Shown here one piece after another: positions 39,780 through 64,000 of a DNA stretch of 64,000 nt. The stretch lies in the NCBI RefSeq assembly GCF_025232395.1, contig NZ_CP065938.1:434001-498000 (forward strand). Reading direction: 5' to 3'. The notes beneath the pieces were generated by a model. That model was not told the origin of the DNA, ran no database searches, and worked only from the letters and a program-made list of their open reading frames with translations. Made by a program: the position numbers and the translations under genes. This stretch comes from Taurinivorans muris (GTDB lineage Bacteria; Desulfobacterota; Desulfovibrionia; Desulfovibrionales; Desulfovibrionaceae). Position 1 is the stretch's first letter, and each line of letters begins with the position of its first letter.

Positions 39780-40562
39780 TTAATCTCTGACTGTTATGTT
39801 ATTCCTTTTTAATGCTGATTTCAAGTCTTTTATTGTATACATTCCATAGTGGACAATAGATGCGACAAGAGCTGCCGAAGCTTTGCCCTTTGTTACTGCT
39901 TCGTATAAATCTTCCGGTTTTCCTGCGCCTCCCGAAGCGATGACAGGAATTTGCACAGCTTCGCAGATCATTTTCGTAAGATTGATTTCGTAACCGTTTT
40001 TCGTGCCGTCCGCGTCAATGGAATTGACGCAAAGTTCTCCCGCTCCGGATTGTTCGCATTGCTTCGCCCAAGCGATTGCGTCAATTCCGCAATAGGTTCT
40101 GCCGCCATGAATGACGATTTCATAGCCGGAAGGAATTTTTTCAGTTTTTTCAACTTGTTTTATATCCATACCCACAACAATGGCTTGAGAGCCGAAGGCG
40201 TTTGCTCCTTGTTCAATGAGTTTGGGATTTTTAACCGCGGCGGAGTTTACGGATATTTTTTCAGCTCCCGCCAAAAGCACAGCCCGCATGTCTTCAACGG
40301 AGTTTATGCCGCCGCCGACACAAAAAGGAATGAAAATATTTTTTGCGACATTTTCAACGACTTCGAGCATTATGCCTCGTTTTTCGTGGGACGCCGTGAT
40401 GTCGTAAAAAACTATTTCGTCAGCCCCTTGTTTATAATATTTTTTTGCCGTTTCAACAGGGTCGCCGATATCGATATTGTTTTCAAATTTAATGCCTTTT
40501 GTCAATCTGCCGTCACGAACATCAAGGCAGGGAATAATTCTTTTACAAAGATTCGCTTTCAT
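39780..40562 (-). CDS. hisF: Imidazole glycerol phosphate synthase, cyclase subunit
   Basis: A 260-residue TIM-barrel cyclase with catalytic Asp in [20 protein letters not shown] and [14 protein letters not shown], plus phosphate loops [12 protein letters not shown]-like [13 protein letters not shown] and [14 protein letters not shown]. It uses ammonia from HisH to form IGP and AICAR in histidine synthesis. Nine bases after hisH. Only these two his genes occur here. Confidence 0.96.
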
Positions 40563-55196: not shown

Positions 55197-57635
55197 TTAT
55201 TTTTCTTTCTTTTTACGGGTTTTAAAGGAATTTTCAGCGAGCCAGCCGAGTTCGTGCAGCTCCGCATCCACGGTATGGAAAAGGGTGTTTTTAGGGAAAT
55301 TGCCGGCTTTTGTGCGTTTTCCCGCAGGAATACCCGTTAAGAGTTCCAACGCCTCTGTGACGTGGCTTACGGGGTAAATGGCGAATAAGCCTTGGGCAAC
55401 GGCATTTCTTACTCTTTCATTGAGCATAAGGTGTTCGATATTGTCTTTTGGAATAATGACACCTTGTTTGCCAGTGAGTCCGCGTTGTTCGCAAAGTTTG
55501 AAAAATCCTTCGATTTTGCGGGTAACCCCGCCAACAGCCATGATGTCGCCCGCTTGGCTGACCGCGCCTGTCATAGCAAGGCTCAGGTTGATAGGGGTTT
55601 TTGATATTGCGGAAAGCAGCGCCACAAGTTCGGCTCCGGATGCGGAGTCCCCTTCAATGCCGTTATAGCTTTGTTCAAAGCAAAGACTGCCGGTTAACAC
55701 AAGAGGTTTATTATGGGCGAATTGGTCAACCAAATAGCTTTTTAAAATCATCATGGCTTTTGTATGTATCGGTCCAGCCAGTTCCGACTCCCTTTCCAAG
55801 TCGATAATGCCGCCGTGCCCAACGCCCACGGTGCAGGAAATTTGGTGCGGCAAGCCAAATTCAAATTGTCCCGCATAGGTAACGGATAAGCCGTTGACTC
55901 TGCCCACAGCATATCCTGAAGTCTGGATTTTTATCATGTCCCTGTCATATTCTTCCATAAACAATTCTTCAATATACGCGGAACGATACATTTTTTCTTG
56001 ATATGCTTTATGGATATAGTCTTTCGTGACTGTTTCCCTTTGCTCCATTTCGGCAAGGGCGGATGCTTCAATCATGGTTTCCCGGATAAGCGGAAATTTA
56101 AGCGATATTTTCGTGTGGTCTTCGCATAACAAGGTTGAATAATCAACCAATGCCGCCAAAGCCTCTTTGTCGAAAGGGAGCAAGTCCGCCTCGTTGACAA
56201 TGTGCGCGATGTTATGCAGCCAAGCCCTGATATTCGATATTGTTCTGTCTGTGTCTATGCTCATTTGAGCTTTTATTTTGAAAAGTTTGGAAAACCTGTC
56301 GTCATTTTCCAGCAATGTTTCATAGATTTGGTCAGTTCCGATGAGAATAACTTTCAAATCCAAGTCAAAAGCGTCGGGAGAGAGTGTTTTGGTTTTGATA
56401 AGTTCGTTGCTGTCGTCTTCGACTTTGCTTTTATTGGCGCGAAGGACACGCAGCAAACCGTCCCAGGCGCTTGGGTGTGCAAGAATATCCTCGATATGAA
56501 AAGCTAAAAAACCGCCGTTTGCTTTATGAACGGAACCGGCTTTAATTAACGTGAAATTCGTTGACAACGCCCCCATTTCCGATTCCCGTTCAATGCAGCC
56601 GAGCACATTGAAAAAGGTCGGGTGGCTTTCAAAAATAATGGGAGCTCCTTTTATTTCGCTGTTATCGACAAAAAGATTGAGCTCATAGCGTGATGAATTG
56701 TCTTGAGCCGTCGGAAGGACAGGGGAGGACAATTCAGCGAGGCTGAGGGGGATCGTTCCTTCTTTGACAAGGAATAAATCCATATTTTCAAGCATATCCT
56801 TATGCATGTTGTCAAAGAATTTGTTGACGCTTTCTTGGTATATTCCGGCATTTTTACAAAATTTTTCTTGAAACGGGATGAAATATTTATGCAAAACGTC
56901 TGTCATCACTTCTTTTTCAAGATCTTTTTGATTTTGTTTGAAATCACGTTCCGCTTTGCTCAATTTTTTGATGACGGTGGTCATGGTGTGGAGCAAGTGG
57001 TCACTTTTTCGTTTGATTTCAGAGCGGATATTGACGTCTAAAAGTTCAAATTCCTCATCGTTCAGCCTTTTTCCTTCAACTAAAGGATAAAGGGTTAAAC
57101 TGCCTTGCTCGTCAATATCCAGATTAAAGCCTTGCTTTTCGGCAATAGTATCCATTTCTTTAATAAAATGTTCACGGATTCTTTGAAAATTGGATAAAAT
57201 CGTTTGCCGTTTTTTTTCATAGGCTTCTGTTTCAAAGCGCAAAGGAATTTCTTTTTTGATCTGCTGTAAAATTTTGGCAAGTTCCGATTTTAAAATTTTT
57301 CCTTGCCCCGCGGTGACTTTTAACAGAATAGGACTGTCTGTATCTTCAAAATTGTTGACATATAACAAATCAGGAGGTGTTTCTTTTTTTTGGGCTATGG
57401 GCTTTAAAAAATTATACAGCATATAGCCTCTGCCAAGGTCGTTTTCCCCTGCCAAATAAATATTATAGCCGTTATCTTTTATGTTGACGGCAAGATTTAA
57501 AGCATTGACAGCCCGAGGTTGGGAAAAATCTTTCCGTAATGATTTAGGAATATCATCACTTGTTTCCCAGGGAATTTTGTTCGCATCCAAGGAAGAGTGC
57601 AGTTTTTCAGCCGCTAAGGGAAGAATTTTAGCCAT
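55197..57635 (-). CDS. Lon-like S16-family ATP-dependent protease with degenerate Walker A
   Basis: An 812-residue protein of the proteobacterial Lon-like (LonC/YcbZ-type) group. The N-terminal ATPase motif is LAGENDLGRGYM, where classical GxxGxGKT has become GxxxLGRG; a long coiled-coil insert spans about residues 130-290. The protease domain has the catalytic Ser in EGDSASGAELVALLSAI and the Lys in VGGVTRKIEGFFKLCE. It is not house-keeping Lon (no LAN domain). It may degrade damaged proteins or act as an ATP-independent protease. Cotranscribed behind hemC (12-base gap). Confidence 0.85.
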   Translation of the reverse strand: MAKILPLAAEKLHSSLDANKIPWETSDDIPKSLRKDFSQPRAVNALNLAVNIKDNGYNIYLAGENDLGRGYMLYNFLKPIAQKKETPPDLLYVNNFEDTDSPILLKVTAGQGKILKSELAKILQQIKKEIPLRFETEAYEKKRQTILSNFQRIREHFIKEMDTIAEKQGFNLDIDEQGSLTLYPLVEGKRLNDEEFELLDVNIRSEIKRKSDHLLHTMTTVIKKLSKAERDFKQNQKDLEKEVMTDVLHKYFIPFQEKFCKNAGIYQESVNKFFDNMHKDMLENMDLFLVKEGTIPLSLAELSSPVLPTAQDNSSRYELNLFVDNSEIKGAPIIFESHPTFFNVLGCIERESEMGALSTNFTLIKAGSVHKANGGFLAFHIEDILAHPSAWDGLLRVLRANKSKVEDDSNELIKTKTLSPDAFDLDLKVILIGTDQIYETLLENDDRFSKLFKIKAQMSIDTDRTISNIRAWLHNIAHIVNEADLLPFDKEALAALVDYSTLLCEDHTKISLKFPLIRETMIEASALAEMEQRETVTKDYIHKAYQEKMYRSAYIEELFMEEYDRDMIKIQTSGYAVGRVNGLSVTYAGQFEFGLPHQISCTVGVGHGGIIDLERESELAGPIHTKAMMILKSYLVDQFAHNKPLVLTGSLCFEQSYNGIEGDSASGAELVALLSAISKTPINLSLAMTGAVSQAGDIMAVGGVTRKIEGFFKLCEQRGLTGKQGVIIPKDNIEHLMLNERVRNAVAQGLFAIYPVSHVTEALELLTGIPAGKRTKAGNFPKNTLFHTVDAELHELGWLAENSFKTRKKKEK

Positions 57636-59409: not shown

Positions 59410-59610
59410 ATTACAAAATTGTAAAAAAAATATATTCATACGATAGTTTTTCCTGTATGGTTTGAATGCGTTCATAAAAAAAGTTTCCTGCGGTTCATAT
59501 TTTTATGGACAATGATTGGCAATTATTTTATATTGACCGCAGTTGAGGGGATTTTTCAATTTTGAAAAATTATTTTGTATAACATTAACGTTACTTGTTT
59601 TGGAGTTGAA

Positions 59611-60360
59611 ATGAAAAAGATTTTATCTTCAATGTTTCTTGCTTTATCTTTGATTGCCGGTCAAGCTCAGGCTGCTGATGACGAAACCATTGTGATTGCC
59701 ACTAACCCAACATGGCCGCCAATGCAGTTTATCGACATGGATAAAAACATTATCGGCTTTGAAGTTGATCTTCTTAATGCGATTTGTGATGCTGCAAATC
59801 TCAAATGCACATGGAAAAATGCTGCTTGGGAAGGTATTTTCGGTGAAATTGAATCTCACAATGCTGATGTTATCGCTTCTTGCGTAACCATTACTGAAGC
59901 CCGTCAAAAGAAATATCTTTTCTCCGAACCGGTATACAATATGTATCAAGCTCTCGTTGTTCCTACCGATAGCCCTATCGCAAAGCCCGAAGACCTTAAA
60001 GGCGGAAAACGCGTGGGTATCCAAATCGGAACGACAGCTATCGAAGCTTTGAAAAAAATCGATGCTGATTATGAAATCGTAACATATGACGAAGTCGGTC
60101 TCGCTCTTGAAGATTTGGCTAATGGACGTCTTGACGCCGTTATGTGCGATGACCCGGTTGCAAAATTTTATGCAAGTCAAAAAGAAGGGTATAAAGGCAA
60201 GATGAAAATCGCATTCTCCAGCACTGACCCTGAAGTTTTCGGTTTCTTGGTATTGAAAGACAATACCGCTCTTATGGATAAATTGAACGCCGGTTTTAAA
60301 GCAATCAAAGAAAACGGCAAAGAAAAAGAAATCCTTACCAAGTGGTTCGGTGAATTTTAA
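59611..60360 (+). CDS. Periplasmic amino-acid-binding protein (family 3)
   Basis: A 249-residue solute-binding protein with signal peptide (MKKILSSMFLALSLIAGQAQA). Family-3 features: NPTWPPMQFIDMDKNIIGFEVDLLNAI split at the FxVDL core, WEGIFGEI, DVIASCVTITEARQK and VGIQIGTTAIEALK with the Arg and Asp binding residues. Binds a polar or basic amino acid by family likeness. No permease or ATPase beside it, so it works with a transporter encoded elsewhere. ATG at 59611 follows TTGGAG. Confidence 0.88.
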   Translation: MKKILSSMFLALSLIAGQAQAADDETIVIATNPTWPPMQFIDMDKNIIGFEVDLLNAICDAANLKCTWKNAAWEGIFGEIESHNADVIASCVTITEARQKKYLFSEPVYNMYQALVVPTDSPIAKPEDLKGGKRVGIQIGTTAIEALKKIDADYEIVTYDEVGLALEDLANGRLDAVMCDDPVAKFYASQKEGYKGKMKIAFSSTDPEVFGFLVLKDNTALMDKLNAGFKAIKENGKEKEILTKWFGEF

Positions 60361-60382
60361 TTCTTGCTTGTAATAAAAATTG

Positions 60383-60414
60383 AAAAAGCGGCTTCTTTCG
60401 ATGCCGCTTTTTTT
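60383..60414 (+). terminator. Rho-independent terminator after the binding protein
   Basis: AAAAAGCGGC (60383-60392) pairs with GCCGCTTTTT (60403-60412), followed by TT. Confidence 0.85.
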
Positions 60415-60679
60415 ATATGCAGTAAGGTGCTGCCCTGCAAAATCAAGAGCACTGTTGTATGCGCAGGAATTTCGATTGATGGTTTTTCATGTATGAACAT
60501 GCTTTTATTGAAATTGGATTTTTATTGCAATTATCGGCAATTCAGGAGTTAAAATCCGGTTTAATTAACTTGTATTAAATTTAGAGTTAGAATAAGATTA
60601 TTAAAATATGTTTAAAGCCGTTTGAACTGAAACAGGATTTAAACCAAATAATAGTATTATAAAACAAAGATAAATCGGT
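60415..60679. other. Intergenic stretch before the sugar-nucleotide cluster
   Basis: No gene, RNA or repeat recognised. It should contain the promoter of manC-gmd; TATTAT at 60655-60660 is a possible -10 but no matching -35 is seen, and no activator site is evident. Confidence 0.35.
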
Positions 60680-62078
60680 ATGAATAAATTTATAACAACT
60701 GTTGTCTTATGCGGAGGAAACGGAACAAGGCTTTGGCCTCTCAGCCGTGAGCTTATGCCTAAACAGTTCATAAAATTTTTCAATCAAGGTTCTTTGTTTC
60801 AAAAAACAATACGGCGGAATGAACTTTTTTCCGAAGAAACAATTATCATTTCCAATAAAGATCATTATTATTTAATACAAGATCAAATAACGGAAAATTG
60901 TAATGCCGTAAATCATATATATATATATATTGGAAACAATCCCCAAAAATACGGCTGCGGCACTGGCTTTTGCATGTTTGGCTGTTGATCCGGAACGTGT
61001 TTTATTGGTCACTCCCAGTGATCATCTGATTAAAAATGATGAGCTGTATGTTGAAGCGGTAAAAAAAGCGAAAACAATTGCCGAACAAGATTTTTTGGTG
61101 ACATTCGGTATAAAGCCCGTTTATCCTGAAACTGGGTATGGATATATTGAAATTGCTGAAAATTATGCTGTGCGGGCTTTTCTTGAAAAACCGACGCAAA
61201 ATGCGGCTGAAACATTAATAAAAAATGAAAATATTTTTTGGAATTCCGGAATTTTTTGTTTTAAAGCAAAGACGTTGCTTGAAGAATTAAAAAAATACGC
61301 TCCGGATGTGTATGAAACTTCTGTTATCGCTTTTAATGCTTGTTTGAAAAATGATAATACGTATCGCTTACCCGTGGAAGAAGTCAAGCAAATTCCTGAA
61401 ATAAGCATTGATTATGCCGTTTTTGAAAAATCGGAAAAAGTGAAATGTATTCCGGTTCAATTTGACTGGTCGGATTTAGGCGGTTTTGAAGCTTTATATA
61501 AGGAGTTTCAAGCAGACAATGAAAATACCGCCCATAATGTGAATCAGATAGCTATTAATTCGGCTGGCAATTTTATTTATCTCGCTCCTGAGAATAAAAA
61601 AGTCATCGCAACAGTTGATGTCAATGATTTGATTATTGCCGATACCGGTGACGCTCTTCTTGTCGCTCCTTTGAAATCATCGCAAAAAATAAAACAGGTT
61701 GCTGAAAAAGTAAAACAAATTTCGTCATTGCACAGGGAGCATAAAATTACGCACAGACCATGGGGAACATATACCGTTTTGGAAAGCAGCGATGGTTATA
61801 AAATAAAGAAAATCGTTGTTGCTCCCGGCAAACGGTTATCGCTGCAAAAACATTTTCACAGGAATGAACACTGGATAGTCGTAAGCGGTACGGCAACCGT
61901 GCAAATCGGGGATAAAACAAGTTTAGTCCGTCCGAATGAATCCATTTATATCAAAATGGGCGAACTGCACAGATTAAGCAATGAAGGGCTTGTTCCGGTG
62001 GTTATCATTGAGGCGCAAGTGGGCGAATATACGGAAGAAGACGATATAGTCCGTTTCGATGACGATTATATCCGATAG
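60680..62078 (+). CDS. manC: Mannose-1-phosphate guanylyltransferase/mannose-6-phosphate isomerase, out of frame at an (AT)8 tract
   Basis: Two frames make one protein of about 465 residues. Frame 1 (from 60680) has VVLCGGNGTRLWPLSRELMP and KQFIKF, the GTP-binding start; after the (AT)8 tract it runs into a stop at 60986. Frame 2 resumes at 60930 (LETIPKNTAAALAFACLAV), then VTPSDHLI, FVEKP-like FLEKPTQN, WNSGIFCFKAKTLLEEL and a C-terminal cupin isomerase domain (HRPWGTYTVLESSDGYKIKK, QKHFHRNEHWIVVSGTA). It makes GDP-mannose for gmd, which follows. As written, the gene is OFF; one more or two fewer AT units restores it. Confidence 0.85.
60915..60930 (+). repeat. (AT)8 dinucleotide tract inside manC
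   Basis: Eight AT units directly at the frame break, in codons for the HIYIYI stretch. Such a tract is prone to slipped-strand mispairing; (AT)6 or (AT)9 would read HIYI...LETIPKNT in one frame. Confidence 0.9.
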
Positions 62079-62090
62079 AAAGGAAATGAG

Positions 62091-63215
62091 ATGGAAAAAC
62101 AAAAAGTAGCATTAATAACCGGAGTGACAGGTCAAGACGGAGCGTATCTTGCTGAATTTCTTTTAAATAAAGGATATGTTGTTCATGGGATAAAACGCCG
62201 TGCTTCTTCGTTCAATACGGATAGGATAGACCATTTATTGTCTGACAGCCATAAAATCGATGTTAAATTTTTCCTGCATTACGGCGATATGACGGATTCA
62301 ATGAATTTAACAAAAATCATTCAGGAAACGCAGCCGGATGAAATTTACAATTTGGCGGCAATGAGCCATGTTCACGTGTCTTTTACAACGCCTGAATATG
62401 TGGCTAATGCGGACGGTATCGGCACGTTGAGAATTTTAGAGGCTGTGCGTTTTTTGGGTTTGTCAGAAAAAACCAAAATTTATCAGGCTTCAACTTCCGA
62501 ATTGTTCGGTAAGGTTCAGGAAACTCCGCAAAAAGAAACAACTCCTTTTTATCCGAGAAGCCCGTATGCGGTGGCGAAATTATATGCATACTGGATTACG
62601 AAAAATTATCGTGAAGCTTATAATATGTTCGCATGCAACGGAATATTGTTCAATCATGAAAGCCCTATTCGCGGTGAAACTTTTGTAACGCGTAAAATCA
62701 CCTTGGCGGTATCTAAAATCGCAGCGGGTTTGCAGGATAAATTGTATTTGGGCAACCTTGATGCAAAACGTGATTGGGGACATGCCAAAGATTATGTGAA
62801 AATGATGTGGATGATTTTGCAGGCTCCAAAACCGGACGATTGGGTAATTGCAACAGGCAACACAAGCTCTGTGCGGGATTTTTTGATTTTGGCTTTTCGG
62901 TATGTCGGAATTGAGCTTGAATTTAAAGGCTGCGGGGTTGATGAAAAAGCGTATGTTGCGTCTTGTTCCAATCCAAAGTACCAAGTTCCGGCAGGAAAAG
63001 AAGTCGTCTGCATTGACCCTGCGTATTTCAGACCCACGGAAGTCGATTTTTTGCTTGGCGACCCTGCCAAAGCCGAAAAGGAATTGGGCTGGAAAAGAGA
63101 TTACTCATTAAAAGAGCTTGTCGATGATATGATGAAAAGTGATTTGGAAATCGTTAAAAAACATAATTATTTAAAAAGCGGCGGTTTTGTGTTAAAAAGT
63201 TATTTCGGAGAATAA
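62091..63215 (+). CDS. gmd: GDP-mannose 4,6-dehydratase
   Basis: A 374-residue short-chain dehydrogenase converting GDP-mannose to GDP-4-keto-6-deoxymannose, the branch point to GDP-fucose, perosamine, rhamnose and colitose. NADP motif [19 protein letters not shown], catalytic Ser/Tyr/Lys in [12 protein letters not shown] and [15 protein letters not shown], and [18 protein letters not shown]. Depends on GDP-mannose from the preceding manC. Starts 12 bases after manC and 1 base before the next gene. Confidence 0.96.
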
Positions 63216-63216
63216 G

Positions 63217-63777
63217 ATGGCTTTTGATTTTATTATTGAAGAATCACAGGAAATCAAAGGGGTTCATATCATAACTCCCAGCATATCCGAAGATTTAAGA
63301 GGAAATATCTGGACCTCTTTTTATCAGGAAGAAATTGAACAATTGCTTCCCGCCGGCTTGCATTTTAAACACGACAAGTTTTCCCAATCGCGGCAAAATG
63401 TTTTACGCGGCATACATGGTGATTTCAAGACCTGGAAATATGTGACTTGTGTTTTTGGCGAAATTCATCAGTATGTTGTCGATTGCAGGAAAAATTCTCC
63501 GACCTATCTGAAATGGCAGGAGTTTTTGATCAACAAGGATAATCAAAAAATAATCCTTATTCCGCCAAGCATGGGAAACGCATATTATGTGACAAGTGAA
63601 TATGCCGTTTATCACTATAAATGCGCTTATGAAGGAGAGTATATCGACGCCGGCGAGCAATTTACCTTTGCGTGGAATGACAAGCGGATCGGTATTGCAT
63701 GGCCTGCACCCAATCCCGTTTTGTCCGACAGGGATATGCTTGCGGCTGTGAAACAGAGAAAAGGAAACGCATTATGA
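63217..63777 (+). CDS. RmlC-like sugar-nucleotide 3,5-epimerase
   Basis: A 186-residue cupin of the dTDP-4-dehydrorhamnose epimerase family: EDLRGNIWTSFYQEEIEQ, the catalytic region LRGIHGDFKTWKYVTCVFGE, VDCRKNSPTYLKWQ and PPSMGNAYYVTSEYAVYHYK. In this cluster it probably acts on a GDP- or dTDP-linked 4-keto-6-deoxy sugar from gmd. One base after gmd; stop overlaps the next start (ATGA). Confidence 0.85.
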   Translation: MAFDFIIEESQEIKGVHIITPSISEDLRGNIWTSFYQEEIEQLLPAGLHFKHDKFSQSRQNVLRGIHGDFKTWKYVTCVFGEIHQYVVDCRKNSPTYLKWQEFLINKDNQKIILIPPSMGNAYYVTSEYAVYHYKCAYEGEYIDAGEQFTFAWNDKRIGIAWPAPNPVLSDRDMLAAVKQRKGNAL

Positions 63778-64000
63778 AAGAAATCAAACTGAATGATATT
63801 GTTTTTGCAAAGCATATAACGGCTGAGGATTGGGAAGCAGGATTAAAATTTTATTCCGCTGATGATGATTTTATTCAAGTCGGTTCATGGAATTACGATA
63901 AAGGCAAAGAGCTTTTGGCGCATACTCACAATACCGTTGAAAGAATTGTGCAAAGAACGCAGGAAGTCCTTTATATCCGCAAGGGAAGAATAAAGGCAGA
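63774..64000 (+). CDS. Cupin-like protein of the polysaccharide cluster (cut by window edge)
   Basis: The first 75 residues are visible: MKEIKLNDIVFAKHITAEDW, an acidic middle, SWNYDKGKELLAHTHNTVER with a His-x-His cupin motif, and EVLYIRKGRIKA. It overlaps the RmlC-like gene by 4 bases. Probably a sugar-modifying or binding cupin of surface-glycan synthesis. The C-terminus is outside the window. Confidence 0.7.
   Translation, partial: MKEIKLNDIVFAKHITAEDWEAGLKFYSADDDFIQVGSWNYDKGKELLAHTHNTVERIVQRTQEVLYIRKGRIKA

Follow-up and report, generated by a model that had tools for sequence, protein, structure and literature searches.

The manC gene of Taurinivorans muris is broken into two reading frames at a perfect (AT)8 tract, and the arrangement is very probably, at a likelihood that we put near 85%, that of a slipped-strand ON/OFF switch, an SSR contingency locus caught in the OFF state and belonging to a genome-wide set of phase-variable AT tracts. 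The window, which is the whole 64,000-nucleotide stretch of DNA that was analysed (contig NZ_CP065938.1, positions 434,001 to 498,000), comes from a genome (G000) of 2,172,708 bp in one contig that is 99% complete.

The manC reading frame at the AT tract

The (AT)8 tract occupies exactly positions 60915–60930 of the forward strand, as confirmed by the sequence and by TRF, and is one of 28 AT tracts of 14–18 nt in the genome. The N-terminal manC frame (60680–60988, forward strand, 102 aa) starts at the ATG at 60680, carries the GGNGTRLWPLSR motif, runs into the tract, departs from the ManC frame beyond it and meets a stop at 60988. The C-terminal frame (60930–62078, forward strand, 382 aa) exits the tract and reaches 62078 stop-free, encoding the remaining guanylyltransferase domain, the beta-helix and the PMI domain without interruption. 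In a family profile search, the N-terminal half corresponds to positions 1–77 and the C-terminal half to positions 80–465 of the 467 positions of TIGR01479, and so the two halves make up a single ManC that is split at the tract. The C-terminal half alone scores 402.5 bits against the TIGR01479 cut-off of 372.95, and the N-terminal half scores 71.2 bits, the two lying in separate frames as sequenced. The Pfam matches give the same picture: the NTP_transferase domain (PF00483) is cut in two, with its positions 2–75 in the N-terminal half and the rest in the C-terminal half, where the beta-helix and PMI domains (PF22640 and PF01050) follow.

Since the two frames are united only by unit numbers divisible by three, eight units leave them out of frame, and the number of units sets the reading frame of manC, as judged from the frames and TIGR01479. 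The preliminary description had stated both that the (AT)8 tract puts manC out of frame and that eight units leave its halves in different frames, and the sequence, TRF, the open reading frames and TIGR01479 bear it out on both points. The tract is the sole long AT tract of the window, the break in manC coincides with it, and a 12-nt AT core appeared in none of 100 dinucleotide shuffles of the window.

The order of domains (GMP, beta-helix, PMI) is that of the type II bifunctional ManC/AlgA proteins described by TIGR01479, to which both halves match, but unlike those homologues the manC gene studied here is split by a repeat. The (AT)8 tract encodes a stretch just ahead of the conserved LLEP-G-RNTA motif, where homologues differ in length. 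The spacing between the GGxGTR and RNTA motifs, scored in 89 of 106 homologous ORFs with both halves in one frame (loci L006–L115), ranges from 71 to 93 and is most commonly 75 (48 of 89). In-register versions of the manC tract would give a spacing of 74–80. Since the observed range spans these values, the tract sits in a length-tolerant stretch of the protein. Seven AT runs of at least five units are present in the loci of the 106 homologous ORFs, and all seven lie outside manC.

A second complete manC elsewhere, which the preliminary description had named as a finding that would weigh against a switch, was looked for with PF00483 and TIGR01479. PF00483 is found at five places in the genome, two of which are the halves of manC; the other three were rejected as a second manC, as their matches read as RfbA-, GalU- and GlmU-like. 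The best one of three TIGR01479 matches in the genome is the C-terminal half of manC itself. Thus, no second full ManC was found among the five PF00483 places and the best one of three TIGR01479 matches. The manC of another genome of the same genus (G067) was considered as a test of the tract and set aside: it is intact, is 39% identical over the C-terminal part and lies in another neighbourhood.

The island headed by manC

The manC gene stands at the head of an island of about 8.3 kb (genome positions 494414–502703, equivalent to window positions 60414–68703), of which 60414–64000 fall within the window. The limits come from the junction and a blastn comparison of loci L158 and L116. In a draft genome of the same species that is 80% complete (G113), 83 bp replace the whole island according to blastn, and the flanks are 99.5% (left) and 99.0% (right) identical to those of G000. 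In a genome of another species (G086), the left-flank gene and the regulator-like gene of the right flank are also close together. The left-flank gene (59575–60360, forward strand), which was assigned by eye as an amino-acid-binding-type ABC transporter gene, encodes a protein with 100% identity in G113 and 94% identity in G086. These comparisons are most simply explained if the G000 lineage acquired the island. Among 184 ManC relatives in the genome collection, from a scan that may omit near relatives, the best 80 show 51–60% identity over the C-terminal part and come nearly all from Campylobacterota, which suggests transfer.

The gmd gene for GDP-mannose 4,6-dehydratase (62091–63215, forward strand; TIGR01472, 582 bits against a cut-off of 415) starts 12 nt after manC. 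It is followed on the same strand by a gene for an RmlC-like sugar 3,5-epimerase (63217–63777; PF00908, under the TIGR01221 rmlC cut-off) and by a cupin ORF (63699–64000, running beyond the window) that is weakly WbuC-like (TIGR04366, under the cut-off), has no Pfam match and, by eye, likely has its true start near 63774. Then come a short hexapeptide ORF, genes for a formyltransferase, a methyltransferase and a DegT-type aminotransferase, and a gene whose 502-aa product matches no family. This gene set would fit the synthesis of a formylated GDP-4-amino-4,6-dideoxy sugar.

The hexapeptide-transferase-like ORF (L116:8175–8420, genome positions 498175–498420) is only 81 aa long and may be a fragment. 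The left junction of the island, at 60380–60415, coincides by eye with the T-run of a hairpin that resembles a terminator and follows the transporter gene; the loop of this hairpin is about 10 nt, and the terminator scan did not report it. A promoter scan around manC gave a chance-level result, with 8 promoters found and 6.6 expected. Another copy of the manC tract turned up neither in G113, from which the island is absent, nor in viral contigs (0 matches), a scan that may omit records near the window's own genome.

AT tracts across the genome and between genomes

The whole genome contains 73 overlapping 12-nt AT matches, which resolve into the 28 tracts. Eleven of them have seven AT units and 17 have eight, none has exactly six, and the 102 matches of 10 nt leave one extra tract, of five units. 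Markov models of orders 1–4, fitted with tracts masked on 282 kb (13%) of the genome fetched around the tracts, predict 0.004–0.34 tracts of at least 14 nt where 28 were found. Under the least favourable model, of order 2, 26.5 tracts of at least 10 nt are expected and 29 were found, against 3.0 expected and 28 found at 12 nt or more. Since the order-2 expectation is near the observed number at 10 nt or more, the excess resides in the long tracts. A second species (G039) has a similar pattern, with 18 tracts of at least seven units, one of six and four of five. In a sample of the family, any AT run of 14 nt occurs in 14 of 148 genomes, and two of six genomes of the same genus lack a tract of at least 14 nt.

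AT-rich composition was considered as the cause of the tracts in G000 and rejected by comparison with an AT-rich relative (G047; GC 0.30 in the stretches examined, contig of 1,457,619 bp). In G047, there are 74 AT runs of at least six units (114 twelve-mers minus 40 fourteen-mers) and at most 40 of at least seven, whereas all 28 runs of at least six units in G000 have at least seven. Among 26 G047 tracts examined (14–16 nt), three lie in open frames of at least 150 codons and none adjoins TTGAC; in G000, 16 of the 28 tracts lie in open frames of that length.

Other repeat classes were surveyed in the same 282 kb of G000. No AG/CT or AC/GT run of at least six units was seen; 18 A/T runs of at least nine and one C9 run are present, and 10 of the 18 as well as the C9 run fall in long open frames. 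Homopolymer switches may therefore exist in this genome as well. Loss of mismatch repair was rejected as a cause of tract instability, as the genome has both MutS1 and MutL. A working repair system should restrain dinucleotide slippage, and so switching may be slow.

As judged from ORF geometry and Pfam, tracts lie inside and in register with two OafA-like acyltransferase genes and two methyltransferase-like genes. Others lie inside genes for an RgpF-like protein, a radical SAM protein and proteins that match no family, and inside genes for small proteins that adjoin a prophage tail module. Tracts are found ahead of genes for two autotransporters, PagL, an MBOAT protein, one GT2/GT8 and one GT2 protein, a GGDEF protein and an ATP-grasp protein, as well as sensor kinases and amidohydrolases. 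As a plain count from a reading of the Pfam matches, 10 of the 28 tracts lie within or ahead of genes for glycans, lipids or the envelope (manC, RgpF, the two OafA-like genes, MBOAT, PagL, GT2/GT8, GT2 and the two autotransporters). Other genes with tracts are not classic surface-variation genes (histidine kinase, GGDEF, amidohydrolase, radical SAM and ATP-grasp genes), and several have no family at all. Two genes, manC and the amidohydrolase gene at 40138, were scored as split by the tract. Around two other tracts, long frames of 158+484 and 170+502 codons are intact. The gene at 74014 was scored as spanning its tract with a start 14 codons before it, yet an upstream frame of 103 aa overlaps it, and several other assignments are likewise ambiguous.

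A prophage-like tail module at genome positions 736000–752000, with PHROG matches for baseplate, tail and tail fibre and a holin match, is followed by four tandem ORFs of about 200 aa, three of which have an AT tract before or at the start (743178, 743839 and 744477). These three paralogues begin AAAGGAG...ATG GGC AAA TCC-(TA)n, so that the shared ATG is placed just before the tract; the 18-nt tract is in register with this ATG and the two 16-nt tracts are out of register. The ORFs could form a phase-variable tail-module array. Another eight AT tracts lie within about 36 kb (652800–688809) among glycosyltransferase, methyltransferase-like, radical SAM, RgpF and PagL genes, which probably constitute a second phase-variable glycan or lipid region. 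The C9 run (L135:4154, genome position 1051153) is separated by about 35 nt from the AT tract that it precedes upstream of the MBOAT gene and is possibly a second switch at that gene.

A further group of tracts resembles promoters, the promoter calls being pattern matches. TTGAC, which forms the core of a -35 element, occurs within 6 nt of 7 of the 28 G000 tracts; short AT runs from that DNA have it in 2 of 134 cases (Fisher p=6e-5). The corresponding numbers in G039 are 6 of 18 tracts and 1 of 127 short runs (p=1e-5). One of the seven tracts, at 678217, is also in a possible coding start. The tract at 254057 reads TTGATG-(TA)8-G-TATAAT with a spacer of 17 nt, and is the one promoter-like site at which a -10 sequence was made out. 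Two autotransporter genes have near-alike TTGACA-(AT)n upstream regions (L125 and L127), whose tracts at 55955 and 141486 are 15 and 17 nt long. Sequence patterns of this kind suggest two modes of action, with promoter spacing probably governed by some tracts and the reading frame by others, the manC tract among them.

The number of units differs between strains at sister tracts of the manC tract. The separate assembly of G113 has 13 tracts of at least 14 nt, with tracts of the same size class (16–20 nt), and eight were paired with a G000 tract. In four of the eight pairs (1740172, 1524018, 2092746 and 743178, the last a less sure pairing, as it involves paralogues), the two genomes differ by exactly one unit, and in the other four (2026356, 329694, 74014 and 1255294, the last with just one of its two sides passing the flank test) the lengths are equal. 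At 743178, the G113 copy is 20 nt long instead of 18 and is out of register with the shared ATG, while the frame test also gave a frame that begins at another start and spans the tract. In seven pairs, the flanks are 94–99.7% identical, except for one 68-nt piece at 91%, and contain five gap openings in 10,718 bp, indicating that length changes per base are far more frequent in the tracts than in the DNA around them. Three G113 tracts have no one-to-one partner in the G000 stretches compared. Two others match one G000 tract, that of the amidohydrolase gene at 40138, and the stretch between them is absent in G000; the G113 amidohydrolase gene (L175 330–675) reads in a single frame through both AT tracts, which are separated by 313 bp, and the gene is split in G000 (L124). 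Tracts may also act as deletion end points.

Probable switching at manC and its meaning

Slippage at the tract would alter the number of AT units and thereby bring the N- and C-terminal frames of manC into register or take them out of it. With the gene OFF, translation would halt at 60988, and full-length guanylyltransferase would not be made. A TTG at 60930 offers an in-frame start at the tract, but by eye it has no purine run resembling a Shine-Dalgarno sequence, and a product begun there would miss the GGNGTR motif. Since no second ManC was found, the supply of GDP-mannose should stop in the OFF state, which would deprive the products of gmd and of the epimerase, aminotransferase and formyltransferase genes of their substrate and remove that sugar from the surface glycan. 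The 28 tracts would work in two ways, as frame switches within genes and through changes in -35/-10 spacing at promoters. The preliminary description had proposed phase variation by slippage, and this mechanism is very probably right as far as sequence comparison can tell: it gains support from the 28 tracts, their placement in open frames and at promoter-like sites, and the differences in four of eight pairs. Its further claim, that manC would be an unusually upstream control point, holds as far as it was tested, with no second ManC found and with gmd and the sugar genes close behind.

A one-off slip at the repeat, with no meaningful rate of reversion, would instead have made manC a pseudogene in a decaying island. 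The manC tract has been seen once only, in the broken state, the 81-aa ORF of the island may be a fragment, and mismatch repair genes are present, all of which would fit decay; in a recently gained island, little could be concluded from the scarcity of further damage. However, the remaining 382 codons of manC are uninterrupted, the break hits the one long AT tract of the window in a genome with 27 further tracts, several of them within in-register frames, and the lengths of sister tracts differ between strains, and so we regard decay as unlikely. Alternatively, the count of eight could be a sequencing or assembly error and the strain itself could have an intact manC. Long reads are prone to errors at short repeats. 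The complete 2.2-Mbp genome of T. muris LT0009, a member of the Desulfovibrionaceae, was nevertheless obtained by combined Illumina and Nanopore sequencing (PMC10507020), and short reads span a 16-nt tract. The same assembly keeps the long frames at other tracts intact (158+484 and 170+502 codons), and the separate assembly of G113 has tracts of like size. Such an error is therefore very unlikely, and manC would still contain a probable variable tract if the units had been miscounted. Programmed frameshifting, or slippage during translation or transcription, would join the two frames and yield full-length ManC from eight units, and the good conservation of both halves would agree with it. By eye, the site has neither an X-XXY-YYZ slippery heptamer nor a long A or T run, and the same type of tract occurs where no shift is needed, at promoter-like sites and in frames that can be read as they stand, so that this explanation has a negligible chance of being correct. 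A slipped-strand switch at the DNA level, caught OFF, accordingly remains the preferred reading of manC.

Dinucleotide coding switches of the CT/AG type occur in outer-membrane genes of Helicobacter pylori, and manC resembles them in having a dinucleotide in an open frame with ON and OFF states set by the frame, but the dinucleotide and the gene families are different. The Campylobacter jejuni poly-G/C, Neisseria poly-G and Haemophilus tetranucleotide loci share with the T. muris tracts an in-frame repeat whose unit number governs expression, a multiplicity of loci per genome and glycan and envelope targets; here, in contrast, the repeat is mainly an AT dinucleotide, the organism is a gut commensal of the Desulfovibrionaceae and the switched gene supplies a sugar nucleotide. 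Accounts of the repeat types of known SSR contingency loci are given in PMC4965091, PMC5953494 and PMC2651432. Tetranucleotides are described as the primary repeat class of H. influenzae, and a (TA)9-11 tract at hifA/hifB of that organism has been proposed to set the -35/-10 spacing (PMC2651432). The seven tracts adjoining TTGAC are like the hifA/hifB tract in placing an AT/TA repeat at a promoter, whereas, by comparison with that account of H. influenzae, AT is here the main class seen and is found also within coding frames, as in manC. A survey of Neisseria reports no length change at dinucleotide tracts and does not count them, while stating that such tracts do act in other Gram-negative organisms (PMC5953494). 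The term 'phase variation' is absent from the main text of the article on T. muris LT0009, which gives the genome as CP065938, RNA data under PRJNA867178 and proteomic data under PXD044449 (PMC10507020). Among the entries listed for one open library, which give weak evidence of absence, none described phase variation by AT dinucleotides in Taurinivorans, Desulfovibrio, Bilophila or Lawsonia, and none described a manC that is phase-variable. The mechanism is a known one, and what is new is the repeat class, its prominence, the presumed host and a target at the top of a pathway.

These observations lead to a plausible wider picture, which we consider likely, in which Taurinivorans, as a lineage of gut commensals, runs an AT-dinucleotide phasome, with 28 and 18 tracts in two species, despite MutS and MutL, and in which the manC switch heads a recently gained sugar-nucleotide island. 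The targets of such a phasome would be surface glycans, lipid A or O-acyl modification, autotransporters, sensor kinases, amidohydrolases and genes of a prophage tail module. The 28 tracts provide a defined list of loci for checking in existing reads. A multi-locus phasome would then be likely in an apparently commensal sulfidogen of the mouse gut, and it would rely on a repeat class that the Neisseria survey did not count, having no evidence for it in that genus (PMC5953494). At manC, a change of one AT unit would add or remove a whole sugar branch, and there is the possibility that such a switch bears on phage receptors, immune recognition and strain differences in colonisation.
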